Source of the DNA: Stramenopiles sp. TOSAG23-2
Taxonomy: Eukaryota; Sar
DNA length: 30,767 bases
Assembly (NCBI GenBank): GCA_900128395.1
Contig: LT649379.1
Coordinates: forward strand, 1 to 30,767
Reading direction: 5' to 3'
Shown: positions 13,901 through 30,514 of the stretch, in pieces
Layout: every line of letters starts with the position of its first letter
Position numbering within the stretch: position 1 is the stretch's first letter
Notes under the pieces: generated by a model
The model's input: only the letters and a program-made list of their open reading frames with translations
Database searches by the model: none
What the model was told of the DNA's origin: nothing
Position numbers and translations under genes: made by a program

Positions 13901-14053
13901 ACGTTAGCAGAAGGGGCAGATGTAGAAAATGCATTACCAACAGCTCATACATGTTTCAATCAACTTGTTTTGCCAGAATATAAGTCTGTCGAAACATTGA
14001 TGCAGAAATTACGGTATGCATTCAAGAATTCATCAGGATTTCAATTGACTTAA
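10907..14053 (+). CDS. Membrane-anchored HECT E3 ubiquitin ligase with FN3 and WW domains (1048 aa)
   Basis: The enzyme takes ubiquitin from an E2 onto its catalytic cysteine and transfers it to a substrate lysine. Order: a strong hydrophobic segment at about 3-29 with almost no residues before it, so a signal anchor; a basic, Ser-rich juxtamembrane region (40-105); an Asp-rich stretch (107-118). Three FN3-like beta domains follow, at about 236-357, 361-457 and 459-558 (the last has VELSWTRPCDNGAQIEKYVLYG). A Ser/Pro/Arg-rich linker leads to a WW domain at 634-665 (W638, YYY 650-652, W661, P664). The HECT domain runs from about 680 to the end, with GIDSGGLTKDWF in the N-lobe, FFGNFLAKAI, and the active-site LPTAHTCFNQLVLP with Cys at 1016, 32 residues from the C-terminus, as in the family. 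WW-HECT resembles the NEDD4 class, but no C2 domain is seen: the TM and FN3 domains stand in its place. No intron interrupts the coding region. The gene converges on the giant gene, 183 bp away. Confidence 0.95.
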   Translation: MIGVFLSAISIISVLTFFGSLAALFALNMIGKYENQRRYDHKVELIRRLSVSSKKARRSSKARSVMLNRRPSMKPPTPKSKSSPKVRDVSRRAKFRRAFKLSIVIPDDDESDNDTILDFNGNKTNITKIPSPIPKWSPSSLEVAVQKVVKKNFDDIFVKIGSPTNRSLPKNKKTWPGSPTYRPQGPDGKKWQFFDDTAYDDIFGKNERKLLKDSLFYSHEETLGTWMVETFSMQSPYGIKYTTNSFTIGWDSMVNKDKASVIEYDLQCRVAKLDNGDLSDSPRNAEFFVDIDGNKNNRVYHDCLEIFTSLPKDAFRKNFNKLKIQGLTGSSPPIEYRVRLKSFAGWGPYTKPSEPFRPLASTTFAPETRAITSRGVEIRWHPLKDVRYGRTIRYTLTGKKAGQNRFSTIFIGKGTSCVVQAIQNKALKPNTTYVFQLLIRTDAGDVLSQVLPITTLAAPPDPPAQPTVGIVTSGSVELSWTRPCDNGAQIEKYVLYGRRSRSNRFKRLFTGNALTYHVGGTEGQGQLAPDTVYIFKVKACNAHGDGATSSTVSVTTLSLTASPIRREGSGDGQTSPIASSPVPIGRRRSSTTDNRRGSFISPNSPAFRNPDRRNSSTSPTNTSMSVTPARVSELPNGWVECWDPERENCYYYNSVTGITQWMHPTKGDHKDPELPFRKKRFKLLYSLRERDWPKGGRKIIKITLRRSHLVQDSFTTLERLGVEKLKLKTKIVFENEEGIDSGGLTKDWFLELSRGLFNPLFCLLKKHEARVYHIDPRSGVNEEHLRYFHFFGNFLAKAIYDRQLVDVQFCRVIYKHLLGLPPTIDDLGDIDSVYFTSLKWILNNDIDDIIYETFSVTIDNFGEKKIIDLIPNGSKIEVTNKNKEQYVSAIVKWTMCDAMKEQIEHLKKGFYEIVPLKEIKDFTPTELSLLLNGKKDINVDEMANQTKYTGGYSRSSVPVQFFWVAMKSFSKEERGELLQYATGTNKAPLDGFDPAFTITLAEGADVENALPTAHTCFNQLVLPEYKSVETLMQKLRYAFKNSSGFQLT

Positions 14054-14236: not shown

Positions 14237-17200
14237 TTATGCTGATTTTCCCTCTCGTATAATATCCTCCTCTAGCATATTCTGTATACGCAGCATTTCG
14301 CCCCATTTCATTATGTAGTAAAACATATGTGGTATCCAATCTTTCATTAACATTTCCGAAAGAATTATAATTAGTGGCTGTATGATAAAGAAAATGAAAA
14401 AGGAAGTCCACAAATAAGTTTTGCTCCATAGTATTTCTCTATCAAAATCAAATTTGATTCCATAAGTAAACATAAGAAAGCTACAATAAGCATGTAGCAC
14501 TATCAACAAAAACATGTAACCAAAAACTGGCAGCAAGTCTATACTTGTGTTCCTTTTTATATGGGCAATTTCCAAATACCGTACTTGGCGGGTTTTTCCT
14601 AAATAGCGCCGTACGAGAGACTGAATCGTACATGCGGCACCATCATACACAGTTTTAGTTAATTGGATCGAAGATGCAACAACTTTGCCATTATTTTCTA
14701 AAAATAGCAACTCTTTTAATAAATTTACTTTGTCTTTTTCTCCTTTTGTAACATAATCATCCTCTTCTAGATTCGTTGGTAGATATCGCATCAAAAACAG
14801 CGACAAGAATAATGATATCGCTTGTATTGTAATCATTACATATGAAATGCTTCCCATTAATTCTGTATGATCAACAAGATCAGAAATAATATAAGAATAA
14901 CAACCATCTCCTCTATATAACACAGTCGAATTATTATATTTGCATTCTTCGACAGGATAATCTAATTTATCACCAAAACCGCAGCATTCACCATCATTTT
15001 GAATTTTTGCAAGATCATCAGATGTACCGTCATTTTTAGCTGCATCTATCCATATTGTACGTATGTCATCCCAGTTACTTTTGCTTAAAGCTTTCACGTT
15101 TACAATTTCCATATTGTACGAAGCTAATACGACTAGAAGAAGCAACATTACACTTGGAAAAATAAATAAGATTTTACCGGATGTAAATTTGAGTAAATAA
15201 ATGCCAAAACTTGCTCCATTTGCTACAAAAAAGCCTAATATAAGACTTGCGGATGCATAAGGGGTTAAAAATATGTATTGGTAACTGTATAAACTATATA
15301 CGAGAAGAGCAAACGATATCGAAGTTAACAAACTTTGTAACAACAAAATTACCGTTTTAATATTTTGTGGAAATGCAGGCAAGAAAAATTTTTCATTAAT
15401 CGTTTCTTGTGCCTTCAAGATATTATAATAATGGGCTTCAAATATTCTTCGCCTCAGTCGAACACTGTATCCACGCCACATGGCCTGTACTGTTGTGGCA
15501 CAATTATAAATTTCTCTCGACAATGGTGTACTTCCATGCATGATAGCATCAACGACATAACGTTCATAGGAATGTGTTGTGCCATGCAAGGGATTATTTG
15601 CATCGCCACTTTTTAAACGTCGCTTCGCAACATCTTTTCTGGTTGCATATTTTAATGCTCGAATATGCAAGACTTCAAAGTTTCTCCATCGTTTTGCTGA
15701 CGATGGCCCTGCTTTGTATAATGATAACCCTTGTATTAGATCATATGAAGTTGCTAATCTTCGATGTACTTTGGACGAACCGAAAAGAAGATAACGAATC
15801 ATTTTAAAAACAATCTCCCAGACAAAAGTGGCAGATCCACTTGACACATTTATAACCCGACCAAAATTTGAACGGGTTGTCGATATGTGATTTTTCACTG
15901 ACATCAAAACATAAATAGCAATTACAGCAGCAATAGTTGTATTGATGATTGGTACATGTGGATCTAAGTTTGTATAAGAGACTCCTGGATCTATGGTTTT
16001 AGTTTCAATTGTCCCTATTGTATATGCTGACAAGCACATTATTAAAAAAGCGGCTCCAGTAAAAGTCATTAAACTTAATATACTTAACGCTCGTCTCATA
16101 ATAAGATCGTTAATACATGCGAATAACAGATGATTCGTCTTAAATCCATGCTTCACGCGTTTACAAAAATTAACAGGTGTACGATTATAAAGATACACCA
16201 ATGGCCTCCTCTGTGCTACCTTTGTTGACCCAAACAGAAGAAAGGACTTTAGATCTCTATGACTTGTCATTTTGTATGATTTTCTTGTTATGTATATTGC
16301 AGCAACGCAAGTCAATACTAACAATCCGCTATAAACTATCATGACTATTGTTGTATCCCAATTAAAAGTGTCATATGTGTAAAGTCCTATTTTGATATCT
16401 CCGACGTATTTTTTAAATGTTGGTGTCGATGGAATAATTCTGCTCATCAGTGCAAACTGCGACAAATGAGTTGACTGACAAATGTATGTATTACCAGCAG
16501 CTGATTTACCCTCTGTAAATATACCATCTACCACCCAAGCTTTTTCCTTGTTGTCCCAATACGAACATAAGGCCTTTTCATCTTTAACTGTTCCATTAAA
16601 TAATGGACTTACTGGTATACTCAATGTTACAGGAACTTGGAGCTCCTTCCATTCCACTGCACCACTATCGACTTTATCACCATCAAAAATTTCAATTGAA
16701 ACAATAGCATTACCTACACTGTTTCGATAATGTAAATTAAGTGCAGCAGCACATATATCTATTTTATTCAAAGACATGGCATAGGTACTAGTATCAATAT
16801 TTATCGAAGCAGCCTCGACGCTGCCTAAGTTTCTGTCTAAATTAATATTATACGATCCACCAAAAGCTTCCCTTTTTGCCCACATGGTTATGTCATCAGA
16901 TTTTAAAGTCAAATGGAATTCTCCTGATACGTGATGATTCAACAGAGCCCTTGATACGGATGCTGTGAGATTCAAAATTAATCCAGCTACGTGCGATCGA
17001 TCTCCTAAATATCCTGAGTGACTTTTATTCGACAGAATATCTGCGTTTCTTCCAGGAAGCTTTGCGCTAGTAACAATAGTTTGCAACGTTTTTACAACAA
17101 TTGGTGCTGCGTCTATAACACTGATGAATTCACGTGGTGCAAATAAATTATGTAAATGTGATATCCCGTCATCAACAATACTCAAATCTATTTCGGATGG

Positions 17201-20200
17201 TGTATCCATTATACTATTTATGCAAAGAACTTGTTGTTGGATAACAGCCTCAGTCACCAATAAATCTTCAAATCTGGATGTTAAAACCGTCATTAAATCT
17301 TTTCTGACTTTCACACGTCGATCTACCTCATTCTTTTTTAAATGACAATATTTGCCAGTCCAAGCGGCTTTACATTGACACGGCGATAGTCTTAATTTAG
17401 AGTATTTTCCGTAGTTACTGTTATGATCCATGTTCCTTTGAAATCCTTCACTACAAGTTGAATTGACATAGTGCCTTTCGGTTTGATTGTTACATTTTTG
17501 AATGTCATCATCGCAAGCCTTATTTGAACTCAGTGTTTCTGCTAGTGATATAACTTTAAAACTTAAATCATTATGATTTAGTTCATCCAGCATTGATAAA
17601 TATTGATCGGACTCGCGCATACCTATGTACCAAGAATGATCCCAAGCATTCGCTGATATCACTTTTACAATCATAGTTGAACCGTCCTTCCGTTTGCTGG
17701 TTGAAAAAGAAGCACCTAAATTATCAGTAACAGTCACCACCATTTTATATAATTTTACACCTTTCAAATATGGCAGTAAGTGCTTAATCTCAGTGGAAAA
17801 ACTGGGCCCAGTAGATATTGGAATTATTGTATCATTATTGTCTACATCTATAAATGAAAATAAATACGTAAAAGGCAAGTCTTCAATATCATCCGCCCAG
17901 GAATTTGTGTATGTAACAAACTGCGTTGTACTGCTTGTTGCAATCTCAGGATATGTTTCTATATAACCTGATGATGGTGGTTTATTTGTTCTAATACTTA
18001 CTTCCGCATAATTAGTACCTTCTGTATTAGTTGCGGATAATCTAAAGCTATAGCTACGCCCAGGAAGAAATGAATTTGGTAAAATTACGAGTGAGATTCT
18101 ATCTAATGGAGACCCGTATACGGATTGAATTTCTTTTTGCTCATTCAAATATCCAGATGTTTCTTCCCAGTGCAAGACATAGTTTTTTCCACCTACTTTG
18201 CCATCTTCTAATATTCCATTTAAAACAAATCTTTTATCTGTATTTATTTTATTCATTATTGGAGATTTAATGTCTACAGATGGACCCTTTATTTCAACAA
18301 ATTGTACTGCAACAGTTTTCATCGCACTGTTTCCGAGGAATTCAACATTTACCGAGAAAAGATATGGTTCTGAAACATCCGTAAATGTAAACGCAGGAAA
18401 ATTTAGTGCACTCCCATCCTCAGAGGCATAGGTATTTATACCATATGAAATAGCACAGCCATGCCCAGATCTGCGAGAACAACTCCATACAAATTTCAAT
18501 TTATTACCAAAGGACCCGTACTGATCCGGCGATATATCATCAGAAATTGACCTAGAGGCATCCAATGAAAATGTATTGTAAACTGACTGCTGTCGTTGCA
18601 ATGCCCCAACATCTACATGTATCGAAGATAGTAGTACAATTATTGTCCGAAACGCAGATTGACTATAACCTTCTTTATTTATTTGCAATTCTATTGTGTA
18701 TTTCATATTGGACTCGAAAAAAAAAGCTGGAATCTTTATTACTTTACTACCGTCAAATCTATCTATTGTAGATGTGTCTACCACATTGACTTTTCCATTT
18801 GCAGCATTTTTTGTAATATACCAATTAAACTTTACATCTATAATGGAGTCTGTACCACAAGTAGGCAATACAGCACCATTGACAATGAATTGTTCGCTTC
18901 GTCTAATTTTTGTAGTATCGTTCATCAATATGATAGGATAAAAATTATCCGAATCAGACATTGCAATCTTTAAGCTTTTGCTAGAATGTTCACCTAATAT
19001 ATTTTCTATTGTTAATGCGACAGCAATTTCCCTGATTCCCCCATTAAACCCAACCACTAAAACATCTCGAGGAATCGATAGACGAAGTGCTTGTACACTT
19101 GAAGCAGCATTTGATATATTGTTCAAGGATTCTGTAAAGTACGTACGATAATCCGAGCCAGCGGAGCCTTGGGCTGTGTATATAGAAGCGACAGACCATG
19201 TTACATCGTCTCTACCTCCGCCACTTGTTATCGAATTAGTGCCATCAATTGTTAAATCATTGCATATACTAGCGTGTGGTAATGCAATAATAGAAGCCGT
19301 CGGTTCAACAACATTTGGTGGCACATCAATTTTAATGCAACCACTAGCTGAAAGAATACTATGTCTTATAGGTTTTACAGCATCTGGAATCAGTCTCAAA
19401 GAACGCCCTTCAGGGCATAAAACTTCCTTTGAAATATCTGAAGAAACGCTGCAATAACAAAATTCGTCGGTGCATGCATATTCAGAAGTTGAACATTTTG
19501 TAGCGTACCCGTAATAATTAACGTACGCTGGTGTAGGAAGGCACGACTGACATTCACAAGTACCACATCGATTTAAACCAAACGCAGGCTGGATAGATGA
19601 ACCAAATCCTAAACTGATTCGCAATAAACATGGCGAAATCCATGAGCATGATGCAGCACCACCTAATTTATCCGAATTTGCAAAAACATTTGTGCACAAA
19701 GTTGCTCCAGCAACATCATGAAATCCACCATAGCAATAGCCAGTAAAATTAACAAATAATTCTGTACCAGTATCACCGTAATACGCATAGGTCATTTCTG
19801 GTGGTGGAAGACGTGGCTGCAAAACATACGTGCCTTCCGAAAAAATAACACTGGTTAATGTAGATCTTACAACCCCACCTAAAAGAGCTAGCTTAGAACC
19901 CGGTACTACATGCTTCTCTAGTGGGGTACCTTCTCTTACCCTTAGTTGTGTACGACTATGCCAATAGCAAAAAGCACCAGTTCCAAATAATTTTGCAGTC
20001 CGAGTACTAAAAAATTCATTACAATCTTCACTGTGCTCGATTCCTATAAGCTCCACGTACGCTGGTCGATCGAAGGTTACATGGATTTCGTTAATATTAT
20101 CAGCCTGCACCATAGATAGGACACTGGGAGGTGGTGAAGTGTCAACAACTGCGGAGGCATCGATAATACGCAAATTTGTGGCTTCTAAAACTATCTTCTG

Positions 20201-23200
20201 AAATAACTTATCATCAGTAGTAATTTCGTACACTAACTTGTCAAAATGAACTTGTGTTTCTAAGATTCCGTCATCAAACGCAGAAACATTTACTTTTTGT
20301 TGAATCATGTAATTGAAACTTGTGAAAGTAATTTGGGATGGCGAAACAACGACCTGATTCTTCAAAGATTTGATTTGTATGACAACAATGGATCTAGGAG
20401 CAGACTCTAATTCAACAAAAAATATATCAGCTCGTGTTCCATCTTCAGTTACCACTAAATTTTTTCTCGAGAGAAGTATTCCTGCAACATCGTTATCGTT
20501 AATGGATACATTAAAAACGGGCGTAATCAAGTCGCTGCATGGCTCGCAGTTATACGTTGCATCATCACTGATAGCAACATGTTGAATCAAAGTATTATAT
20601 GTCACTCCTAGATCAGTGTCATCGTCGTCGATGTTCAAAGTAAATGTTTTTGGATCCATCCAATTTTCCTTTCCCACATCAAAAAGCAAGGCAGCAGGTA
20701 AAACGGCAATATCACCATTCGGACGAACTATAACAGAAGTCGAAAATGACAAGGAAGATTCGTTACCAATGTATTGGGATGGAGTTTTTGCTAACATACC
20801 ATCTGAAGCAGGATTGAGGGAGATTAATATCAAAACTGGCGTTCGAGGCTGTGCAGTTAGTTTAATATCGTAGGTGACACGGCCACCTTCATCAACCCCA
20901 TAAAATATGTTTGGCGTCAATACGACTCCTGCAGTATCTTCATCAATAACAGTAACGGAAACATCCGGTATATGTATGTTGTAATAATTTGAATCATCGG
21001 TTGAAGATGTATGCGTGATAATGCTAGTGGAAACAAGAGGATCATCATAATCGTCTGGCCTTGCAGTCACATTTACCGTATGATTTACACGATAATCAAA
21101 AATACTATTTCGAAAAATAATAGTTTCTGGATGGATAAAGATATCTTCTCCACTATTCATGGTAAAAGCAACATCGTGCAACGGCCTAGACCTCAACTGT
21201 ACTTCATAACTGCCTTTAAGACCGACCTCGGAGGTAATGACACTTGTATTCCATATTAGTACACCGGAGTAGTCATTATCTTTTATTTCTATTGTAATGT
21301 TTCTCTTTGGTATGTAATCTTGATATAAATCATATACAACATCCTGCGTTTTGATGGAATGAACAAGATTTGATGTCAACGTTTCAACATCATCATAATC
21401 GTCATTCAAAGCTAGTACATTTATATCCACAGGAACTGACCAATTACTCTTGTCGAAGATAATTTTTCTCCTCATGTTTTCTAATTCATCAGCTACTCCA
21501 TCGATGTACAATGCAATTGGTGAAGATGGCCGCGAATTAAGGACTACACTATACGTATCATTTTCCTTGCCTTCAACAACGCACTGCTTACTTTCGGAAA
21601 GTAGTATCTGCGGCATTGGAGCAATTGGTATTCCAATAGAAACGTTTAAACCGCAACCGGCACTGTTGCATGCTGAAATTCTTAAGAAATAACGATGATT
21701 GGGTTCAAGCGAAGTTATCAAACTATTTGCTCGTATACCAACAAATTCGCTGCGAGGTTTTCTTTGCTTACACTTTGGGATCTGCTTTCCAATGTTCAAT
21801 ATTGAATCCCATTTACAAGCAGGATCATTTGGTGCTATTATAGAACAGTAGGTCAAAATATATTGAATACAACTTTGGCGTGGTATCGTACTATTATGGT
21901 AACCGATTTTTTTGCTACGAATCCAGGAATAGCTGAAATCCTCTATGACGCATGGTGGAGACGACACATTTTTTTGCAACATAATAGAACACGGGGATAG
22001 TTTATTTAATGTATCAAATGGACACCTTACTTCACAAAACATATCAGACGAACACATGTTTTCGGAGACACTTTGAACAATAGGATCCATATGGCAGTCA
22101 GCAACTGTAGAGCACAAAGCAGTACAATAACCTAGGCCCGGATGACATACGTTTGACTGACAATCACTATTATCACAGCAACATCCACCGTAACTTACGT
22201 TATTCTTAGTTGTTTCTAAACAAGAGCAATTTTCGTAGTACTTTCGTGCGGTAGTTTCCTCGTAGTTTTTAAATAGCGTAGGTGTGACAATTTCATGCAC
22301 ACCATTTAGAAACTGGTATCTTTTTGCAATTTCCAAGGTATTCATTGTCGAATTTGTCGAATTTGTCTCGTTAGTGCTATTTAATTTCCTGTATTTGATA
22401 TCTGTAAATATTTCCGCCCAAGCAATAAAATATGATGAAATTGCATCCCCCCCATTACTAACTGGAGGCGAATATAAAATTGACAGCGTCGAATAATTAT
22501 GAATAGCTTGTTCCACTCTCGTTGGAATTTCTGGAGGTTGCATTGTTTTAACTGGATTATGACTACTTGTTAGACCACACCCGATAGCATTGCAAGCAGT
22601 AATGTTTACATTGTAAAATACCCCCATCTTCAACCTAGTTATTTCGACTATGTGTGTTGTGGTAGAATCTACGGCATGTTCAACCTTTGTAAAATTATAC
22701 ACAATTTCACCACATCTATCGTTGGAATAGTTTAATTCACAACTGCAATTGTTGATGCTAGAGCAATTAAAAGGGCTTACCTGTCTATATTCCACCCGAT
22801 ATTTCCTAATCTTTGAACCCCCATCGAAATCAGGCACTTTCCAAGATACAAACAAACTACTTCCATTTATATGAGTCACATATAAATCAATTGGGGCATT
22901 AGGCGTTTGAATCGGAGGAATTATGCTGAGAGGATCACTAAGGCGTGATCTACCTCTTCTGTTTGCAATGACAGTATATACACGAAAGAAATACTCTTTA
23001 CCTGGGATAAGATTGTATAATATACGCTCATACATGTAGGTAGCATTTGCATCGGCGCGTTGAGAATACGTGGCTAAAGTGGACTCAATGGTTACACAAC
23101 TTAAACTTGCATTGTGCGCCTGTTCACAATTGACATACTCTATAACGTTCTTCAGTGATACATGACCAAACTCTATGTCAAAAGAATCAGTCCATTGTCG

Positions 23201-26200
23201 ATCTTCGAAAGAAGGTTCAAATTGGATAATTAAAGACGTTGAATATGCTTCCCGTGTTGAAGTCGTGTGTAGCATAACATGATTATAAATCGGTTTAGAT
23301 GGAATCATCAAAGCAGGCAAAGCAATTGACATACGTGTTATACCACGACCTACGTCATTTACGCTTGATACCCTAACTCTGTAAGCTGTTCGCTTTTCCA
23401 ATGAAGATATTCGATAATTGAATGAATCACCATCAGCAGCAATCACAATGCTTCCATCTGGTACATAATCTAAATCTTTCGAAAAATCATATCTGCTACA
23501 TCCCATATCAAATGGATTTTGGCATTTACAGTAAGTTCGAACAGCTGCAACACAGCTGCTTGTTAGAGTTTCTGTACTGTTTCTCGGTTCGTGGGTATAA
23601 GCTAAATTTAAACAATTTCTATTATCATGATACAATGGGCAAGAAGATTGTAAAAATACATAATATTCAATAGCCATTGAAGCTTGTGAAAAATGTATTT
23701 CTTTTTCGACAGTTTGCTGAAGAAACGATGGACCAGTTGTTAAAGTCACAATTTTTTTAGATGTACGCGCTAGACTTGCAGAAATATTCTGGAAGAATTT
23801 TCCAATACTGTCTGAACAACATGGAAAATCTTGCAAAGATTGACAGTTCAATGACATAGATTGCAAGCTACTTTTATAAGAACTTAAAATATTTGTGCAA
23901 GATTGACCACCCTCATCCCTATCACATAAAAATGACGTAGCAGAACGGTCAAGTGCAGTAGAAATATATCGAACATCACCGCTTCTTTCACAATTTAAGC
24001 GTTCAACATTAGCAAAAACATATGTCATATTTTTCATGCATGGAGACGTACATGATATTACTGGAATATCTCCAAATGGATCTGAAATATAATTACGAAT
24101 AGTTTCAATTTCAGTACGACAACTGCCACTAACATCTAATAAGTCGCGCTCTACTTCTTTCAAAGAAGCACAAGTAATATCAGAGTCATGGTATCTACTA
24201 CCAACTTCATCATTTGTTACATTGTTGCAAGCAGCACAAACGTCATTTCCACCACCTTCACTCGATAAAGGGCATTGATCCAACACTGAACACGACCCAA
24301 TCGTGCCATCACAATTAGATGAGCATTTCCCATATGATGTTTCACCACTGATACTAGGATTGTAATTTTCATTGCAAAGGTATTTTGCTTGACTACCAGT
24401 CGAACCACTATCAAATTGAATGCGTCGATCATACTCCAATAAATATGAAACAATAGAATTACCGTTGTCAAACGAAGGAGCGATAAATTCGACATCTAAG
24501 CTTTCTTTAGCTAATTCCAAAGTGACATTGTTACCTTCATCAGGCTCAACCTGTTTGACTGTAAGTGCTGCTGGTGGAGGAGGTAATGCTCTTGGAACTT
24601 CGAAAGACGGCATAGAAAATGTCGGTCGGCTGTATCCTATTTCATTTAAAGCATACATACCAAAATAATATTTCATGCCAGCGCTTAAATTTGCAATCGC
24701 AACAATTGACTTCCCATCGACTAATGACGAAGTTGAAATTTTTTTATATCCGGTTAGACCTAGTGACAAACGCACATTTTCCAGATGACACGCTATATTA
24801 AGAGTATTTTGTTGTGCACAATAGTCACGAACAACATCTGCACAACAAGGAGAACTTTGCAAATATTTTACTACGCCATTTGTAAATTTACCAATCAACC
24901 CACCTTTGCATGACGGATGATGACATGTGGCATTATCCGCAAATATACAATTTCCAATTGCTTGTGTCGGATCTTCATCCACTATGCTTGTATTATAGCA
25001 AACATCAGCACATAATTTAGCTGGCGAAGAATCATCAATCGCATTTCTGCTAGTATCACAAGCATATTTCGGATAATGTATAGAAGTCTTTAACCAATCA
25101 ACTTTCCTACATGTTGCATTTTGCTTCCCAGTAGCTTCAGCGCACTGCGAGTTTGATGTACATCGAAGTGTACATGAAAATGTTTGCTGGTCACATAAGT
25201 TTGACATACATTCTTTATTAAACATGCAACAAGAACCTAGAACTTTGTTCGCGGTGATGTTGTAATTATTAAAACAAATTGCTTGTTGAGGCGCTTTGAC
25301 ATCGTATTCGATCAAATAGTATAAGATAGGGGAAAAATTATCTGAATCCGATAAACGAAAGATGTTAGTTAGACTACTACGTGAAACCGCTACACTAGTA
25401 TCAAGATTTTCTTGGACTGTTGTAACGACAAGAGACTTAGGCGAGCTTGGAACTTCTACAAGGTATCCTTCATCATACTGATATGGGTTTTCAGGATCCA
25501 AACGCATAGTTTTTGGTGGAGGTGAGCACCATCCAATCGGAGGTATCAACACACTAATCTTGTTCCGATCCATTCTTTTAGCAAGGGTTCTAAAAATTCT
25601 TCCATTCCAAGATGATGGAAAATAATATGCTATATCTAATCGAATCGTGAAATCTTGAATTGAAATAGACTTGCATGTTATCTCTGCAACAGCCGTCGTT
25701 GTATTTGTTAGCTTATTATATAGTAGATTTTCCTCTATGACCCATTTCGTTGACGTTGTTGTCCCATCCGCATTGTTATTGAAAAATTTCCAGTGGCCTT
25801 GTAACCATATTGGGCAATTTTCCGTTGTTAATGGTGTAGCACACGTCCCATTTGCTTGTCTAGTTGTATCTAAGCTATCCTTTTTTTCTTTCCCAGAAGA
25901 ATAACGAGGTCGTTGACACCAGTTATACGGTGAAAAATCCATTTTTATTTCAGAGCGTGGGTCCGTGTCATCTAGAAATATTAACCCACGCTCAATAGCA
26001 TCTATACCAACGTTATATTTAATATCAACTGAAATTGTTGTACCTATATAATTTATTTCATTAAAACTTGAAGCACGACAAAAAATTGATTCAATACGGT
26101 CATTATGGCCACTAATGTTATTGATGGAACTTCTCGTCCCATTGACGATCATTGTGTAACTATTTTCAATGTTACTAAAAGTATTTATTAGAGGCAAGTA

Positions 26201-28591
26201 TTTGTTACCCATCACCGACCACTGCCCATCAATCCATGGAGGACATTTTTCCAGCATTTTAAGTACACTACAACTAAAATATACAGTAGAAAAAGGACCG
26301 TTGTCTAGTGGAGATGAGATGTCTGGTCGTATACACCATCCATATGGACCAAAAGTCATTTCCATGGTACCATTTTCTTGATAGAATTTTGCAATGCCCC
26401 GACGAGTATGCCCCAACAACGACGTTGGTTTGTTAGGTGTTATATCAAAACTTACGGAATGCTTATCATTCGTAGCTTCTTTGTTTGCATCATGATTGCA
26501 ACTTAATTTACCATATACAACATTATTTACAACAACATCTCTGCCATGAATTGCTAACTTATTGACATTATACTCAGATCCACCGATGCTACTTATATAA
26601 GTCCAATTTCCTTCAAACCAACCTGGACATGATGCAGTTAGTAGTGGTGTGTTACATCTATACACAGTGCTTGTGAAAGGATGTGGTGCACCACTTGATA
26701 AAGTAATATCAAAAGTTGAAAATTCAGGTCTTCCACAAAATCCTGCCGGCGCCTCAACAACATGTATAGTCCCCTTTTCGTCCATTTTTTTAACAATAAA
26801 TCGCTTTACCCAATTTTCAAAATGAGTTGGCGAAAGACCTTCGATATCTAACATCAGCTCGTACGAATTTGTGGCCATAGAACATTTCATAGAACCATGA
26901 ATGTATTCTGTAGATTTTATGGTACCTAAATTTCTAGAATCGGTTACATTAAATCCCAGCACAACACTTTTCAAACTGTCACTGCCACTTGTATTGTTCA
27001 ATGAAATTCTAGGCCCAGCTAACCAATCTGGACATGGAATGGATAACAAAGACATTGAGCAAAAAAATTCATATGTATCAAACCCATTAGGGGTTGAAGT
27101 ACCAATTGCCACTGGCTTAGCACATTTTCCAGGCAGACTAACTGTAATTTTAAATGATACGTATGTTCGACTAAATTTAAATTTAGTATGACTACTCCAA
27201 TTCGTTACCGTGCTCGGTGATTGAAAAACGATATCTAGGTATGACTCTGGCCAATTTGCCATAGCTGTGTCACCAGGTATAGAATACGATTCAAGCTGTT
27301 GATCACATCTAATGCTTCCACTATACATAATACCATTTTTATCAATAAATTCTACTGCGTTTCTAGTGGAGTTAAAATAAACATCTACATCATTATTAGT
27401 CGTATGATCATTACTATTCAATAAATGACCACGCCAATTACCGTGAAGAAAAGTATTACATAAATTTTCTTCATTTGGCACTGTGCAATGTAGGCTCGTT
27501 CTTCTATAGGGAACCCGTTCATCAGTTTCAAAATTATATATGGAGGGGGTTGAAACATTATGTGGCCGTTGGCACCAATTGAATGGCGCACCAACATGTT
27601 CAAGGAGACTTGGATACTGCGTTACACGAAAGACACCCCTTAATTTATGTGCTGGATCAGTTTCCGTAAAATCAATTCTCCATTGTCCATAATCCCCTTC
27701 GCTCTGCGTTGACATTTGTTGGCATGTGACACTATATTGAAATTCAACTCCATTTGAAGTCGATAAAGATATTGTATTTCCATTATCCGCTATAGTCAAA
27801 ATCCAATTATCTAAATAAACGCCTGTCTCATGTATACTTGCCATAGATCCATTCCATGACCCGTGTAACCAATGAGGGCAGATATCGCTTAAAGCGGTTG
27901 AAGTACAACCTAAAGAGTCGTAATAATATTTTCCAGACGGGACATTCTCTTTACCATCGTCATACGAAGTAAGTTTCAATGTAGAAAAACTTGGGTATCT
28001 TGTATCTTGCTGACCATCTACATAGCAACTAGCTTGCCAACCATATGTAATTAAAACATCGATCGACGAGGACGTTCGACTACTTATACTTTCCGCAGCG
28101 ATTGTAGGTAATGTTTGTAAATTAGTCCTACCTAAACGTATGACACCACGTATAAATGGATATGTTTCAGACATCCAAGTCGGGGAATCAGGCATTACAT
28201 CCCATTCTATAGCCACGTTTAAATCATCTGAAGACTCTTCTTGCGATAGAATATCCCATTCTCTACCAACATTTAAAGCAGTAGTAGCCTTGCTAAGGTT
28301 TAAACCACAGCGCATTGTCCCACTAAACGGTTGAGTCAATATAACGGCTGATACATGATCTCCCACAACTGTTAATTCCCAGTTTTTAGCACTTTTCCAT
28401 TGACCTTGCAACCAAGGCGGACATAGCCTTGGTGCAGCACATGTTCCTTCGCATATGGGGTCGCATAATTCGTTGTTTGTGACTGGATCACAATCACAAT
28501 GTGAAGTTTGCCATGATTGGGAAAAAGGTATGCAAATTACTAGTATGGTCGTCAATAGTAAAATTAATACTAGTTCGAAATATTTTATCAT
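14237..28591 (-). CDS. Giant multidomain GPS receptor with embedded tetraspanin (4784 aa)
   Basis: A single uninterrupted ORF for a cell-surface protein with a huge ectodomain. Order by residue: signal peptide about 1-27; seven Cys/Trp repeats 57-1022; five FN3-like domains about 1046-1325, 1335-1755, 1763-1890, 1897-2010 and 2018-2318, three of them interrupted by Cys-rich inserts; four Calx-beta-like repeats about 2330-2810 (each with a hydrophobic strand, E-x-G and a DDYDD or DDD acidic loop); a REJ/PKD-like beta region about 2820-3650; an EGF-like module 3693-3749 ending CQCKAAWTGKYC; a GAIN-like region with a GPS at 4009-4050 (C4009, W4012, W4019, C4038, H4042-L-S). Nine predicted TMs: 4079-4102, 4170-4192, 4213-4232, 4412-4436, 4441-4466, 4473-4490, 4580-4603, 4685-4710 and 4722-4746. 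IQ motifs lie at 4363-4383 and 4652-4672. TMs 4 to 7 with the CCG loop at 4536-4538 form a tetraspanin. GPS proteins with REJ regions recall polycystin-1, but no PLAT domain and no polycystin channel core are recognised. Roles in adhesion or mechanosensing are inference. Confidence 0.92.
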   Translation of the reverse strand: MIKYFELVLILLLTTILVICIPFSQSWQTSHCDCDPVTNNELCDPICEGTCAAPRLCPPWLQGQWKSAKNWELTVVGDHVSAVILTQPFSGTMRCGLNLSKATTALNVGREWDILSQEESSDDLNVAIEWDVMPDSPTWMSETYPFIRGVIRLGRTNLQTLPTIAAESISSRTSSSIDVLITYGWQASCYVDGQQDTRYPSFSTLKLTSYDDGKENVPSGKYYYDSLGCTSTALSDICPHWLHGSWNGSMASIHETGVYLDNWILTIADNGNTISLSTSNGVEFQYSVTCQQMSTQSEGDYGQWRIDFTETDPAHKLRGVFRVTQYPSLLEHVGAPFNWCQRPHNVSTPSIYNFETDERVPYRRTSLHCTVPNEENLCNTFLHGNWRGHLLNSNDHTTNNDVDVYFNSTRNAVEFIDKNGIMYSGSIRCDQQLESYSIPGDTAMANWPESYLDIVFQSPSTVTNWSSHTKFKFSRTYVSFKITVSLPGKCAKPVAIGTSTPNGFDTYEFFCSMSLLSIPCPDWLAGPRISLNNTSGSDSLKSVVLGFNVTDSRNLGTIKSTEYIHGSMKCSMATNSYELMLDIEGLSPTHFENWVKRFIVKKMDEKGTIHVVEAPAGFCGRPEFSTFDITLSSGAPHPFTSTVYRCNTPLLTASCPGWFEGNWTYISSIGGSEYNVNKLAIHGRDVVVNNVVYGKLSCNHDANKEATNDKHSVSFDITPNKPTSLLGHTRRGIAKFYQENGTMEMTFGPYGWCIRPDISSPLDNGPFSTVYFSCSVLKMLEKCPPWIDGQWSVMGNKYLPLINTFSNIENSYTMIVNGTRSSINNISGHNDRIESIFCRASSFNEINYIGTTISVDIKYNVGIDAIERGLIFLDDTDPRSEIKMDFSPYNWCQRPRYSSGKEKKDSLDTTRQANGTCATPLTTENCPIWLQGHWKFFNNNADGTTTSTKWVIEENLLYNKLTNTTTAVAEITCKSISIQDFTIRLDIAYYFPSSWNGRIFRTLAKRMDRNKISVLIPPIGWCSPPPKTMRLDPENPYQYDEGYLVEVPSSPKSLVVTTVQENLDTSVAVSRSSLTNIFRLSDSDNFSPILYYLIEYDVKAPQQAICFNNYNITANKVLGSCCMFNKECMSNLCDQQTFSCTLRCTSNSQCAEATGKQNATCRKVDWLKTSIHYPKYACDTSRNAIDDSSPAKLCADVCYNTSIVDEDPTQAIGNCIFADNATCHHPSCKGGLIGKFTNGVVKYLQSSPCCADVVRDYCAQQNTLNIACHLENVRLSLGLTGYKKISTSSLVDGKSIVAIANLSAGMKYYFGMYALNEIGYSRPTFSMPSFEVPRALPPPPAALTVKQVEPDEGNNVTLELAKESLDVEFIAPSFDNGNSIVSYLLEYDRRIQFDSGSTGSQAKYLCNENYNPSISGETSYGKCSSNCDGTIGSCSVLDQCPLSSEGGGNDVCAACNNVTNDEVGSRYHDSDITCASLKEVERDLLDVSGSCRTEIETIRNYISDPFGDIPVISCTSPCMKNMTYVFANVERLNCERSGDVRYISTALDRSATSFLCDRDEGGQSCTNILSSYKSSLQSMSLNCQSLQDFPCCSDSIGKFFQNISASLARTSKKIVTLTTGPSFLQQTVEKEIHFSQASMAIEYYVFLQSSCPLYHDNRNCLNLAYTHEPRNSTETLTSSCVAAVRTYCKCQNPFDMGCSRYDFSKDLDYVPDGSIVIAADGDSFNYRISSLEKRTAYRVRVSSVNDVGRGITRMSIALPALMIPSKPIYNHVMLHTTSTREAYSTSLIIQFEPSFEDRQWTDSFDIEFGHVSLKNVIEYVNCEQAHNASLSCVTIESTLATYSQRADANATYMYERILYNLIPGKEYFFRVYTVIANRRGRSRLSDPLSIIPPIQTPNAPIDLYVTHINGSSLFVSWKVPDFDGGSKIRKYRVEYRQVSPFNCSSINNCSCELNYSNDRCGEIVYNFTKVEHAVDSTTTHIVEITRLKMGVFYNVNITACNAIGCGLTSSHNPVKTMQPPEIPTRVEQAIHNYSTLSILYSPPVSNGGDAISSYFIAWAEIFTDIKYRKLNSTNETNSTNSTMNTLEIAKRYQFLNGVHEIVTPTLFKNYEETTARKYYENCSCLETTKNNVSYGGCCCDNSDCQSNVCHPGLGYCTALCSTVADCHMDPIVQSVSENMCSSDMFCEVRCPFDTLNKLSPCSIMLQKNVSSPPCVIEDFSYSWIRSKKIGYHNSTIPRQSCIQYILTYCSIIAPNDPACKWDSILNIGKQIPKCKQRKPRSEFVGIRANSLITSLEPNHRYFLRISACNSAGCGLNVSIGIPIAPMPQILLSESKQCVVEGKENDTYSVVLNSRPSSPIALYIDGVADELENMRRKIIFDKSNWSVPVDINVLALNDDYDDVETLTSNLVHSIKTQDVVYDLYQDYIPKRNITIEIKDNDYSGVLIWNTSVITSEVGLKGSYEVQLRSRPLHDVAFTMNSGEDIFIHPETIIFRNSIFDYRVNHTVNVTARPDDYDDPLVSTSIITHTSSTDDSNYYNIHIPDVSVTVIDEDTAGVVLTPNIFYGVDEGGRVTYDIKLTAQPRTPVLILISLNPASDGMLAKTPSQYIGNESSLSFSTSVIVRPNGDIAVLPAALLFDVGKENWMDPKTFTLNIDDDDTDLGVTYNTLIQHVAISDDATYNCEPCSDLITPVFNVSINDNDVAGILLSRKNLVVTEDGTRADIFFVELESAPRSIVVIQIKSLKNQVVVSPSQITFTSFNYMIQQKVNVSAFDDGILETQVHFDKLVYEITTDDKLFQKIVLEATNLRIIDASAVVDTSPPPSVLSMVQADNINEIHVTFDRPAYVELIGIEHSEDCNEFFSTRTAKLFGTGAFCYWHSRTQLRVREGTPLEKHVVPGSKLALLGGVVRSTLTSVIFSEGTYVLQPRLPPPEMTYAYYGDTGTELFVNFTGYCYGGFHDVAGATLCTNVFANSDKLGGAASCSWISPCLLRISLGFGSSIQPAFGLNRCGTCECQSCLPTPAYVNYYGYATKCSTSEYACTDEFCYCSVSSDISKEVLCPEGRSLRLIPDAVKPIRHSILSASGCIKIDVPPNVVEPTASIIALPHASICNDLTIDGTNSITSGGGRDDVTWSVASIYTAQGSAGSDYRTYFTESLNNISNAASSVQALRLSIPRDVLVVGFNGGIREIAVALTIENILGEHSSKSLKIAMSDSDNFYPIILMNDTTKIRRSEQFIVNGAVLPTCGTDSIIDVKFNWYITKNAANGKVNVVDTSTIDRFDGSKVIKIPAFFFESNMKYTIELQINKEGYSQSAFRTIIVLLSSIHVDVGALQRQQSVYNTFSLDASRSISDDISPDQYGSFGNKLKFVWSCSRRSGHGCAISYGINTYASEDGSALNFPAFTFTDVSEPYLFSVNVEFLGNSAMKTVAVQFVEIKGPSVDIKSPIMNKINTDKRFVLNGILEDGKVGGKNYVLHWEETSGYLNEQKEIQSVYGSPLDRISLVILPNSFLPGRSYSFRLSATNTEGTNYAEVSIRTNKPPSSGYIETYPEIATSSTTQFVTYTNSWADDIEDLPFTYLFSFIDVDNNDTIIPISTGPSFSTEIKHLLPYLKGVKLYKMVVTVTDNLGASFSTSKRKDGSTMIVKVISANAWDHSWYIGMRESDQYLSMLDELNHNDLSFKVISLAETLSSNKACDDDIQKCNNQTERHYVNSTCSEGFQRNMDHNSNYGKYSKLRLSPCQCKAAWTGKYCHLKKNEVDRRVKVRKDLMTVLTSRFEDLLVTEAVIQQQVLCINSIMDTPSEIDLSIVDDGISHLHNLFAPREFISVIDAAPIVVKTLQTIVTSAKLPGRNADILSNKSHSGYLGDRSHVAGLILNLTASVSRALLNHHVSGEFHLTLKSDDITMWAKREAFGGSYNINLDRNLGSVEAASINIDTSTYAMSLNKIDICAAALNLHYRNSVGNAIVSIEIFDGDKVDSGAVEWKELQVPVTLSIPVSPLFNGTVKDEKALCSYWDNKEKAWVVDGIFTEGKSAAGNTYICQSTHLSQFALMSRIIPSTPTFKKYVGDIKIGLYTYDTFNWDTTIVMIVYSGLLVLTCVAAIYITRKSYKMTSHRDLKSFLLFGSTKVAQRRPLVYLYNRTPVNFCKRVKHGFKTNHLLFACINDLIMRRALSILSLMTFTGAAFLIMCLSAYTIGTIETKTIDPGVSYTNLDPHVPIINTTIAAVIAIYVLMSVKNHISTTRSNFGRVINVSSGSATFVWEIVFKMIRYLLFGSSKVHRRLATSYDLIQGLSLYKAGPSSAKRWRNFEVLHIRALKYATRKDVAKRRLKSGDANNPLHGTTHSYERYVVDAIMHGSTPLSREIYNCATTVQAMWRGYSVRLRRRIFEAHYYNILKAQETINEKFFLPAFPQNIKTVILLLQSLLTSISFALLVYSLYSYQYIFLTPYASASLILGFFVANGASFGIYLLKFTSGKILFIFPSVMLLLLVVLASYNMEIVNVKALSKSNWDDIRTIWIDAAKNDGTSDDLAKIQNDGECCGFGDKLDYPVEECKYNNSTVLYRGDGCYSYIISDLVDHTELMGSISYVMITIQAISLFLSLFLMRYLPTNLEEDDYVTKGEKDKVNLLKELLFLENNGKVVASSIQLTKTVYDGAACTIQSLVRRYLGKTRQVRYLEIAHIKRNTSIDLLPVFGYMFLLIVLHAYCSFLMFTYGIKFDFDREILWSKTYLWTSFFIFFIIQPLIIILSEMLMKDWIPHMFYYIMKWGEMLRIQNMLEEDIIREGKSA
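14576..14638 (-). other. Second IQ-like motif of the giant protein (residues 4652-4672)
   Basis: After the tetraspanin's last membrane segment and a charged linker, the protein reads CTIQSLVRRYLGKTR, matching the IQ pattern IQxxxR[GK]xxx[RK] with Arg in place of Gly. Being on the same side as the first IQ motif, it would face the cytosol and could bind calmodulin or an EF-hand light chain. It is weaker than the first motif. Confidence 0.5.
14777..15364 (-). other. Tetraspanin fold inside the giant protein (residues 4410-4605)
   Basis: Three closely spaced membrane segments (4412-4436, 4441-4466, 4473-4490) are followed by an 88-residue loop and a fourth segment (4580-4603). The loop has the tetraspanin signature: the CCG triad at 4536-4538 preceded by KIQND, then Cys at 4550 and Cys at 4564 in a G-x-G-C context, giving the four-cysteine pattern of a large extracellular loop. 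The first loop is very short for a tetraspanin. The rest of the order (short inner loop, long CCG loop, final TM) fits. Confidence 0.75.
15443..15505 (-). other. First IQ motif of the giant protein (residues 4363-4383)
   Basis: The sequence CATTVQAMWRGYSVRLRRR fits the IQ consensus [IV]QxxxRGxxx[RK] exactly (V4368, Q4369, R4373, G4374, R4378). It lies in the cytosolic linker between the third predicted TM and the tetraspanin part. Such motifs bind calmodulin or related light chains, which suggests calcium-dependent control of the receptor. Confidence 0.75.
16442..16579 (-). other. GPS motif of the giant protein (residues 4005-4050)
   Basis: CSYWD at 4009-4013, W4019, C4038 and HLSQFAL at 4042-4048, just 29 residues before the first TM, is the GPS layout in which the chain self-cleaves between Leu and Ser/Thr. 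Two of the four usual cysteines are absent: the one that normally follows the second Trp, and the second of the CxC pair (here C-Q-S). The His-Leu-Ser triad needed for cleavage is intact. Confidence 0.85.
17642..20134 (-). other. REJ/PKD-like ectodomain region of the giant protein (residues 2820-3650)
   Basis: A long beta-rich stretch with features of the receptor-for-egg-jelly region: repeats containing FSLDASRS near 3341-3348, KLKFVWSC near 3364-3371, a later VLHWEETSG, and a PKD-like motif VVTVTDNLGA near 3618-3627. A Cys-rich insert (about 3003-3060, with the CGTCECQSC cluster at 3009-3017) interrupts it. Boundaries are approximate. The assignment rests on pattern and on the position before EGF and GPS. 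Confidence 0.6.
20162..21604 (-). repeat. Four Calx-beta-like repeats in the giant protein (residues 2330-2810)
   Basis: Four units start near 2330, 2442, 2554 and 2703. Each has an opening hydrophobic strand (GVLIWN, GVVLTP, GILLSR), an acidic-Gly turn followed by a strand, a [RQA]P strand-turn (NSRPSSP, RSRPLHD, AQPRTP, SAPRSI), a buried Phe (IIFD, IIFR, LLFD, ITFT) and an acidic loop (DDYDD, DDYDD, DDDDTD, DDG). The first three units end in an [IV]xDxD linker into the next. Spacing is about 110-150 residues. Calx-beta repeats bind calcium through such acidic loops. The fourth unit has a reduced acidic loop. Confidence 0.75.
21638..25456 (-). other. FN3-like domains with Cys-rich inserts in the giant protein (residues 1046-2318)
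   Basis: Five FN3-like units are visible from their conserved strand pattern (a Pro-rich start, ...Y.[LI]EY in the C strand, L..[GN]..Y.F.[VI].A.N..G in the F-G region). Units 1, 2 and 5 are split after the ..Y.[LI]EYD/AWAE strand by inserts of about 165, 310 and 220 residues containing many cysteines. Inserts 1 and 5 share G-x-CC...C-x-SNxC...C-xxx-C...C. All three end with a related C...[YW]-type segment (DYC, TYC, TYC) and a Cys 8-10 residues later, then return to the FN3 F strand. Confidence 0.75.
25526..28423 (-). repeat. Seven-fold CPxW repeat in the giant protein (residues 57-1022)
   Basis: Units start at C57, C238, C378, C520, C655, C783 and C926, about 128-181 residues apart. Consensus: C-P-x-W-[LIF]-x-G-x-W, 30-50 residues later G-[ST]-[MIL]-x-C (C95, C290, C429, C570, C698, C838, C973), then an RG[VI]xR-like strand, then [YF]-[GN]-W-C-x-R-P or variant (C340, C490, C619, C752, C892, C1022), and a linker Cys before the next unit. 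Unit 1 lacks the standard end motif, with YGWQASC instead. Unit 3 has CNTFLHGNW. Unit 4 has lost the second Trp. I do not recognise a named domain. The GxW start and beta-rich pattern faintly recall lipocalin-like barrels, which is only a guess. Confidence 0.85.
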
Positions 28592-29203
28592 TTTTATACA
28601 ATGTAAAAATATAGAAAAATAATTTTATTTACAAAAATTTTAGATTGATATTTTATTAGCTGATATCCATTGCAAAATGTAAAAATATAGAAAAATAATT
28701 TTATTTACAAAAATTTTAGATTGATATTTTATTAGCTGATATCCATTGCAAGAATATGTTGCTTATTATATAACGTATATACTATATTAATGGGTAAAAA
28801 GCTGAAGGTTTTTATATGTATCAATTGTTTCAAAATATGTCTCTATATATTATTTATTGTATATTATTGTTTATGCAAGTTAATTAATTAATATACTAGT
28901 ATTATTATAGGTATCAATCATGTATGTATTATTAGAAAAAGCTGTGTTCTACTCTTTACAATAAATTAAAATTAATAAAAAATCAATAGTAATACGTTTT
29001 ATTTTATTTTTAGTCATGCGGCCTGGCTGGCACGCCGACATCACAGGCATTATAGTTTCATTAATATCATCCATAGAAATTTGCTAAAATTTTAAATTTA
29101 AAAGAACGTACGATTCTTCGTACCATTAATATCTTTTTTATGCACATCATATTCAATATATTTTATATAATATAATATTTGAACAGATCTCTCTTGTTTT
29201 TTT
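28592..29203. other. Region between giant and double-tetraspanin genes, upstream of the giant gene
   Basis: 612 bp upstream of the giant start, very AT-rich. It contains an exact 76-bp tandem duplication directly before the start codon and an isolated G+C-rich patch (GCGGCCTGGCTGGCACGCCG, 29018-29037). A 38-codon minus-strand frame reads through this patch but has no recognisable product. The poly(A) site of the double-tetraspanin gene and the promoter of the giant gene must both lie here. Confidence 0.5.
28600..28751. repeat. Exact 76-bp tandem duplication upstream of the giant gene
   Basis: 28600-28675 and 28676-28751 are identical, from AATGTAAAAATATAG to ATATCCATTGCAA. The unit begins 9 bp upstream of the giant gene's start codon (minus strand), so it duplicates the proximal 5' UTR or promoter. 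Like the 122-bp event in the GTPase gene, it has exactly two copies without any difference. Confidence 0.95.
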
Positions 29204-30514
29204 TTAATCATCCTCCTCATCTGATGTATTAATACCTTCTTCTAGTCTTAATACTTCCAATTCTTCATCATCTAAAGCTGCTTCTGCACGACGGATTCTT
29301 TGATACATGTAACACGATCCACACGTATTAAACAATAAAACAACAACAACTATGGCAGCAGCAATGCCTAATTTATACATATGATGCGACATAATAATTT
29401 CAACATCTTCTTCCGTGTAACCAGGTGCAATTTTATCTTCTAATACAGACCATTCAGCTTTTACCACAGTTCGCATTTGTGTTGCATAATGAAATGACAA
29501 AACGCTTGATACGAAAAATAAAATAATTAATATTATTAATGAGCAAAAATAACATCTCATTAATGCACTGCTTTCTTTTCGTACAGCACAATATCCAATA
29601 CCACTTAATGTAGACATCAAAGAACCTAACACAGCAAGAAAATATGGAATCCACAAACCAGTCAAATGTTCTAACCCAGTAATTACACTTAATAATATAA
29701 CTAAAATACCAATAATAAATGTTGCACTATTAACAACTAACATAAAGTTACGAAATGTATATAAATGTCCTAGCAATTGAGATGTTGCACACATCGATAC
29801 AAACAATAAAATTGCTGAGATTAAACAAACAACTCCAGCAACGGCCATATGTTGTTCAATCCATTTTACCGTACTATTGTCAGGCATTCCATCACTTAAA
29901 TAATTCCAATAATATTCTACCAATGCTTCTGCATTCTGTAATTATATGTATGATGTATGCGTGCGTATTGTTAGAGGAGGATAATAGATATATTATACTT
30001 ATGTATAGGTTTAGGGGAATATTAAAAATTCACTTACATCTGAAAAAAAAAAGCAATAAAATGCACTAAACAATAAACCAGATGCAAATACCATTAATAG
30101 AACTAAATATGTGAATAAAAAGTATGACCGTTTTCTACCTGTTGCAAACGAACCAGCGAGTCCATTAAAACTAATAACTAACAGTGCAACACCCATGAAC
30201 ACGACAGTAGCCCAAGCGTTTTCAAAAAGAGATGTTGCACCTTTTGCAGATGCCCCAAGCGAACTTTCATTTGGCATGACATTTGCTGTTTTATTAATAT
30301 TCATATCTGCAGTACGGTTTGCCGCAGCTTGAATTGTTTTGTTTCGATTTGTTATTGTTATAGTAGTTGCACCATAATATATTAAAACGCATGCCAAAAT
30401 CATAGTCAATGTATTAATGACTACTAAATAACATTTTGCATAGCAACGTGCACAACAATCTTTCTTTTCATTATTTGTCGATAGAGCTGAACGATGCTTG
30501 GATAATTTTGCCAT
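29204..30514 (-). CDS. Two-exon gene for an 8-TM double-tetraspanin-like protein (402 aa)
   Basis: Exon 1 (30038-30514) encodes 159 residues and exon 2 (29204-29935) encodes 243, joined in phase 0 (...CFFFSD then NAEALVEYYW...). Without splicing, exon 1 would run on only eight residues to a stop, and exon 2 would have no ATG near its start. Predicted TMs: 28-50, 101-124, 131-154, 188-210, 222-246, 254-277, 286-310, 345-370. TMs 1-4 and TMs 5-8 each follow tetraspanin order (TM, loop, TM, short polar loop, TM, longer loop, TM). The polar loops are ATGRKRS and VRKESSALMR. No CCG motif is present, and the putative large loops are short (about 33 and 34 residues). The N-terminus has CCARCYAKC, a likely palmitoylation cluster. 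The first loop carries the sequons NRT, NKT and NES. The C-terminal tail is acidic. The tetraspanin relation is by topology only. Confidence 0.8.
29936..30037 (-). other. Spliceosomal intron, 102 nt, phase 0
   Basis: On the minus strand it starts GTAAGT and ends TTACAG, with CTCTAAC as a branch-like element about 40 nt before the acceptor. It interrupts the chain just after the third TM. In-frame stops are present soon after the donor. The donor and the CTAAC core are shared with the 76-nt intron at 9922-9997, suggesting a stringent splice code in this genome. Confidence 0.85.

Follow-up and report, generated by a model that had tools for sequence, protein, structure and literature searches.

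Adhesion G-protein-coupled receptors (GPCRs) and polycystin-1 are receptors that cleave themselves, and how they couple to the organisers of the membrane is hard to pin down. For the adhesion GPCR ADGRG1/GPR56, the partners described include the tetraspanins CD81/CD9; as set out in the review PMC13197933, CD81 facilitates the GPR56-Galpha-q/11 complex, Galpha-11 and Galpha-q are scaffolded, and GPR56-CD81 dissociates when the GPR56 ectodomain is cross-linked in natural killer cells. For human polycystin-1, colocalisation with TSPAN4 is reported in a subpopulation of cells, on retraction fibres and migrasomes (PMC10487028). In the polycystin-1/sea urchin REJ (PKD1) family, as surveyed in PMC1934368, 11 transmembrane (TM) segments are given for SpREJ3-6 and for all five human PKD1 proteins, a PLAT domain follows TM1 in 10 of 15 proteins, and a C-terminal cation-channel part is present in 8 of the 15. 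Here we describe a giant gene, P0001, in a 30,767-nucleotide stretch of DNA from Stramenopiles sp. TOSAG23-2 (assembly GCA_900128395.1, contig LT649379.1, positions 1 to 30,767; hereafter the window), which encodes a GPS motif and a tetraspanin domain in one chain, an arrangement that recurs in a predicted protein, P0004.

P0001 is an uninterrupted open reading frame (ORF) of 4784 residues, running from ATG to TAA on the minus strand (14237..28591; all features of P0001 given below lie on this strand). Near its C-terminal end is a tetraspanin domain, PF00335, which spans TM4-TM7 (residues 4411-4602, 14786..15361) and covers positions 1-224 of the 225 in the Pfam profile. It scored 38.7 bits in the whole protein, 42.2 in a shorter piece and 47.3 (E 2.7e-12) as an isolated piece, against a cut-off of 32.1, and no competing Pfam family was listed for the isolated piece up to E 10. 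The domain has four TM segments and a large extracellular loop between its third and fourth (residues 4495-4577, 14861..15109), with a Cys-Cys-Gly (CCG) motif at 4536 and two further cysteines; C4536, C4537, C4550 and C4564 are the only cysteines within residues 4401-4620. The initial annotation had recognised a tetraspanin here from the four TM segments and the CCG loop with these same cysteines, and both the Pfam match and the cysteine positions agree with it; the profile searches gave no sign of the non-tetraspanin family that would have counted against it. Classical tetraspanins are stand-alone proteins of about 200-350 residues; since this one is embedded in a 4784-residue ORF, P0001 does not count as a classical tetraspanin, although it has the domain. 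The reading frame was also supported by composition: codon usage, trained on residues 1-3999, favoured the annotated frame in 6/6 of the C-terminal segments tested, and, given the base composition, the log10 P of 380 successive codons free of stops is about -12.6. The joining of GPS and tetraspanin in one chain of P0001 is thus confirmed.

The GPS motif (PF01825; residues 4008-4048, 16448..16570) stayed unlisted when the whole protein was scanned, but it passed the cut-off of 22.5 bits in shorter pieces (24.1) and in a search of the genome (29.2). GPS residues kept in P0001 are C4009, W4012, W4019, C4038 and the His-Leu-Ser triplet (residues 4042-4044, 16460..16468), in which the predicted cut lies between L4043 and S4044. 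This triplet, noted earlier as intact, is present in P0001 and also in P0004; it had been placed directly before the first TM segment, which it does precede, at a gap of about 35 residues. Cleavage would expose a new N-terminus, SQFALM, which we take to resemble the tethered-agonist consensus of adhesion GPCRs. A GAIN domain (approximately residues 3753-4045, 16457..17335) appeared in the AlphaFold2 model of residues 3640-4784 as helices followed by beta strands; the mean predicted local distance difference test score (pLDDT) of this model was 37.2, and the blocks of the GAIN region were mostly at 40-60. In a Foldseek search with the GAIN-containing model, ranks 1-4 of 384 were the GAIN-bearing ectodomains of ADGRB2, CELSR1, ADGRL3 and GPR126 (E 1.1e-8 to 1.4e-5), matches to a low-confidence model for which the aligned query range was not printed and GAIN is presumed to be the aligned part. 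With this caution, the model points to a GAIN fold in P0001. As a separate observation, the GPS region (residues 3981-4052, 16436-16651, minus strand) showed weak similarity to the axonemal protein IC97/Casc1 (8glv_AE, E 0.25), and rank 5 for the same GAIN-containing model was a bovine sperm axoneme chain (9fqr_Hn, E 2.9e-5; chain identity unchecked); there may be an axonemal protein with a GAIN-like domain.

The searches for relatives gave 1 match among 3727 scored candidates, 1 among 7996 and 7 among 5314, comprising eight different proteins, with P0002 found twice. The decisive one is P0004, a distant relative: a predicted protein of 4744 residues with 40% identity to P0001 from end to end over 4895 alignment columns (1956 of 4623 residue pairs, or 42.3%, in the MAFFT alignment). 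It shares with P0001 the CQSTHLSQF stretch of the GPS, both IQ motifs described below, CCGF, the two further loop cysteines and the final hairpin, in the common order GPS, TM1-3, IQ1, tetraspanin, IQ2, TM8-9; C4536, C4537, C4550 and C4564 are all retained, together with the sequon N4554-S-T and the same two GPS cysteines as C4009 and C4038. The search for the GPS-tetraspanin order elsewhere, suggested by the initial annotation, therefore found it once, in P0004. A tetraspanin was among the precomputed database domains of P0004, the one such case among the seven relatives (1/7), and REJ was present in 7/7, as expected because the query contained REJ.

Nine TM segments are predicted after the GPS: TM1 (residues 4080-4101, 16289..16354), TM2 (residues 4170-4192, 16016..16084), TM3 (residues 4212-4233, 15893..15958), the four of the tetraspanin, and a TM8-TM9 hairpin (residues 4686-4748, comprising 4686-4709 and 4726-4748; 14348..14536), all from hydropathy with borders set by eye. 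The initial annotation, by numbering the tetraspanin TM 4-7, had implied TM1-3; the final hairpin and the REJ domain went unmentioned in it. Two IQ motifs, defined by the pattern [FILV]QxxxRxxxx[RK], flank the tetraspanin: IQ1 at residues 4364-4380 (VQAMWRGYSVRLR; 15452..15502; pattern at 4368) and IQ2 at residues 4656-4668 (IQSLVRRYLGKTR; 14588..14626; pattern at 4656). With the GPS outside, the TM count puts the CCG loop on that same side and leaves both IQ segments, like the C-terminus, in the cytosol. The claim of cytosolic IQ motifs on both sides thus stands for the flanking patterns, and its cytosolic part follows from the TM count.

The IQ segments were also the best kept of the C-terminal parts measured between P0001 and P0004, with 23/41 identical residues (56%) in residues 4355-4395 and 15/23 (65%) in residues 4650-4672, which argues for their function despite sub-cut-off Pfam scores (see below). 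Identity was 36/75 in cytosolic loop 2, 31/80 in the tetraspanin loop, 16/41 in the GPS, 55/165 in loop 1, 121/364 in the GAIN region, 50/184 in TM1-3 and 24/94 in TM8-9, and the ectodomain was better conserved than the membrane parts. The tetraspanin as a whole was identical at 63/190 positions (33%), less than the protein average of 42.3%. This low figure, and the existence of the relatives P0005 and P0006 without a tetraspanin, would suit a passive domain, without a part in signalling, that only helps a REJ-GPS receptor to fold, to be exported or to reach its membrane (e.g. the flagellar one). A passive anchor has no obvious need, however, of the loop cysteines, sequon and IQ segments that are kept, the last above the average, and we regard a purely passive tetraspanin as unlikely.

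Several results weigh against the explanation preferred below. The GPS of P0001 has two cysteines (C4009 and C4038), compared with four in that of P0005. The IQ profile PF00612 reached 17.3 bits for residues 4364-4379 in the whole protein and 13.1 for the second motif, both below the cut-off of 20.3. The charges flanking the TM segments fit the predicted topology only in part: in P0001 they agree at TM1, 2, 3, 5 and 6, and weakly at 8 and 9, are level at 7 and do not agree at 4, whereas for P0004 there is agreement at TM1, 2, 3 and 6, no difference at 4 and the opposite sense at 5, 7, 8 and 9, so that the topology of the second half is derived from the TM count. When P0004 was scanned as a whole, its tetraspanin scored 27.2 bits, below the cut-off of 32.1, and no GPS was listed. 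In addition, the structural model of the tetraspanin had a mean pLDDT of 50.7, and the fold search with it did not single out tetraspanins. Finally, P0002 and P0003, which are 97-99% identical versions of P0001 on other contigs, are thrown out of frame at T runs that lie within the tetraspanin.

That the structure predictions did not single out tetraspanins would suit a tetraspanin-like four-helix membrane unit that arose by convergence inside a polycystin-like core. The full-length PF00335 match speaks against this origin, as do comparisons with other tetraspanins of the same genome. The 17.45-Mb assembly of 793 contigs gave nine tetraspanin matches, seven of them above the cut-off among the best candidates scored, and six units were compared with that of P0001 (L001, L004, L006, L008 and the two units of the gene adjoining P0001, with L005 and the C324 match left out). 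L006, a four-cysteine CCG tetraspanin on another contig, gave a z of 10.7 with the tetraspanin of P0001 and 6.5 with that of P0004, each reached in 0/300 shuffles, and the scores of the other five units against P0001 were reached in 41 to 171 of 300 shuffles. The resemblance of L006 to both copies suggests that the P0001 unit is a real tetraspanin by descent. When a two-sequence profile was compared with the PDB, the single sequence match, with an E of no better than 0.9, was the loop of a tetraspanin. On this evidence, we consider convergence very improbable. An origin from the adjoining double-tetraspanin gene was likewise rejected, its two units (split at residue 225) having z values of -0.1 and -0.2 against 10.7 for L006. 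Besides these, we observed another tetraspanin-type fusion in the same genome: a 466-residue frame (L005:1207-2604, minus strand, contig C415) encodes a GTPase of the Ras family (158.5 bits) and, after it, a membrane part resembling a tetraspanin (35.0 bits against a cut-off of 32.1, profile positions 4-96).

The frame breaks of P0002 and P0003 bear on whether two genes were joined by chance in the contig or by the assembly. P0003 is in frame to residue 4441, where one T fewer in a T5 run (15267-15271) would give TAA; P0002 is in frame to 4455 and shifts at a T6 run (15227-15232) into a frame that is also present in the window. These breaks would favour a chance joining, as would the fact that P0004 is known as a predicted protein only and may be a spliced gene model. 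Each break, however, amounts to one T more or less and lies past the join, both versions being already inside the tetraspanin, and the breaks fall at two different T runs, so that they look like read-length errors; P0002 and P0003 may nonetheless be truly disabled copies. Moreover, P0004 is one predicted protein, continuous over its whole length, and since it keeps the elements of P0001, it is very unlikely that the fusion arose by an accident of assembly or gene modelling. We therefore rejected such an artefact, and hold a chance joining of two genes to be scarcely credible.

The relatives suggest in what kind of receptor the tetraspanin is set. P0005 and P0006 have REJ, GPS and then, by hydropathy, exactly five TM segments before the end (TM1; TM2-3; a long loop; TM4-5), and P0007 and P0009 have a similar five followed by more hydrophobic segments. 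The TM8-TM9 hairpin of P0001 is similar to TM4-5 of P0005 and P0006, which would make P0001 a REJ-GPS-5TM receptor with a tetraspanin inserted into the cytosolic loop between TM3 and TM4. Hairpins and TM1-3 regions were compared in 32 pairings with 300 shuffles each that keep the hydropathy pattern, the figures being uncorrected for the number of pairings. Three of the eight pairings of the final hairpin with TM4-5 were significant (P0001-P0005, 0/300; P0001-P0006, 2/300; P0004-P0005, 0/300), and the crossed pairings (n=16) gave 53 to 296 of 300. On the opposite side, of the eight hairpin pairings, made with P0005, P0006, P0007 and P0009, the other five gave 93-290/300, and TM1-3 against TM1-3 of the relatives gave 10 to 270 of 300 over eight pairings. 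The profile-profile comparisons were weak: the best of 12 was the final hairpin pair, at E 0.0057 and a probability of 6.5%; the runner-up matched the tetraspanin to TM1-3 of P0005/P0006 at E 0.03, and TM1-TM3 against the relatives gave E 0.11. As TM1-3 have no convincing similarity, the insertion model rests on one hairpin, and from the sequence comparisons we regard it as supported but not proven. The initial annotation's central reading, a cis fusion of GPS receptor and tetraspanin, is thus upheld with a revision: the receptor is of the REJ-GPS type, and its tetraspanin, instead of forming the entire core, may have been inserted into one of five TM segments.

The extracellular stalk of P0001 starts after a signal-like hydrophobic segment (residues 1-28). 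The N-terminal region (residues 57-1040, 25472..28423) contains seven copies of C-[PN]-x-[FW]-[LFI]-x-G spaced 128-181 residues apart, and residues 30-1040 are 47.6% identical to P0004; Pfam gave no family for residues 57-1040, and this Cys/Trp repeat is possibly an undescribed extracellular repeat. Three fn3 stretches follow in the Pfam scan, the best at residues 1899-2009 (22565..22897), and then a REJ domain (PF02010, 95 bits; residues 3329-3633, 17693..18607). A profile search of the genome, in which the best candidates were scored, found no match for REJ or GPS elsewhere. The combination of a REJ domain with a GPS raises the possibility of a gamete-recognition receptor, like sea-urchin REJ and the REJ-GPS protein of Ectocarpus male gametes, in which the tetraspanin would serve adhesion or fusion. 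CD9 serves gamete adhesion or fusion in eggs. The Ectocarpus protein, Esi0130_0068, is described as having REJ, GPS and 6-7 TM segments and as male-gamete specific (PMC4700764), while REJ domains are also present in kidney polycystin-1 (PMC1934368). We consider a gamete role rather doubtful; it is compatible with the explanation preferred below, as it names a role and not a machine.

Taken together, the best explanation, which we hold to be fairly probable, is that P0001 encodes a giant single-chain REJ-GAIN/GPS surface receptor with a built-in tetraspanin, which would be self-cleaving, scaffolded and calmodulin-coupled. The stalk of Cys/Trp repeats, fn3 and REJ would be extracellular and end in GAIN/GPS, followed by the nine TM segments. 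The GAIN domain would cleave itself between L4043 and S4044, the halves staying associated, and the C-terminal fragment would receive the effect of ligand or force acting on the stalk. The tetraspanin of the same chain would cluster or scaffold the receptor in cis, a role played by separate partners in animals, and calmodulin at both IQ motifs would couple it to Ca2+. Self-cleavage and calmodulin binding remain predictions from sequence. The receptor may also cooperate with polycystin-2-type channels encoded in the same genome: 12 PKD_channel matches (L014-L021 and four others) were found on 11 contigs, none of them the receptor's contig, and two are on C621, in 1636-residue open frame(s), so that such partners may be available. 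More tentatively, a tetraspanin between calmodulin-binding segments could be the signalling core of a REJ-GPS-5TM receptor, in which shedding of the ectodomain would directly alter tetraspanin clustering and local calmodulin/Ca2+ signalling; this third kind of GPS receptor, next to those with 7-TM and with polycystin cores, seems to us possible, if less than likely.

Upstream, about 600 bp from the giant gene and separate from the receptor, is a predicted two-exon gene on the minus strand (29204..30514; exons 30514-30038 and 29935-29204, with a 102-bp GT-AG intron), whose product of 402 residues carries two stretches matching PF00335 (54.3 bits) but lacks a CCG; this is the double tetraspanin considered above. 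Its predicted intron, together with the domain content, indicates a eukaryotic genome. The convergent neighbour (10907-14053, plus strand) is a single-ORF HECT ubiquitin ligase of 1048 residues that also carries a WW domain and two fn3 stretches. Immediately before the giant ORF, on its upstream side at about 28600-28750 of the window, there is a tandem duplication of roughly 75-80 bp, in which the unit 'ggatatcagctaataaaatatcaatc' occurs twice (by eye).

As a conserved natural fusion, P0001 is a 'Rosetta stone' argument for the ability of GPS receptors and tetraspanins to work as one unit: nature seems to have joined two kinds of protein that pair as separate partners in animals. A single-chain fusion also fixes stoichiometry and geometry for structural work, and P0001 would widen the set of membrane cores that are known to follow a GPS. 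The initial annotation had found the joining of a GPS to a tetraspanin unfamiliar, and among the matches listed in open-licence PMC text no REJ- or GPS-tetraspanin fusion was described.

Among the known systems, the PKD1 family shares with P0001 the order REJ then GPS upstream of TM1 and a giant ectodomain; P0001 differs in having no PLAT or PKD_channel match in Pfam and a TM1-TM2 loop of about 68 residues. An assignment to polycystin-1 was rejected, as neither PLAT nor a channel part was listed for P0001; a six-frame PLAT search of the genome gave no match, but its controls were equally silent and the search is uninformative. With adhesion GPCRs the receptor shares the GAIN fold and the GPS, and no 7TM family was listed by Pfam after the GPS up to E 10; the tetraspanin of GPR56 is a separate protein, whereas that of P0001 is in the same chain. 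The REJ-GPS-5TM proteins P0005 and P0006 share REJ, a GPS before TM1, a similar final hairpin and a short C-terminal tail, but they have no tetraspanin among their listed domains, no IQ pattern was found in them, and their ectodomains carry filamin-type repeats. It is among such REJ-GPS proteins, Esi0130_0068 of Ectocarpus included, that P0001 belongs. With tetraspanins, P0001 shares the four TM segments, the CCG, the four loop cysteines and the complete profile, and it differs from them in that this unit is placed near the end of a receptor, between two IQ motifs.

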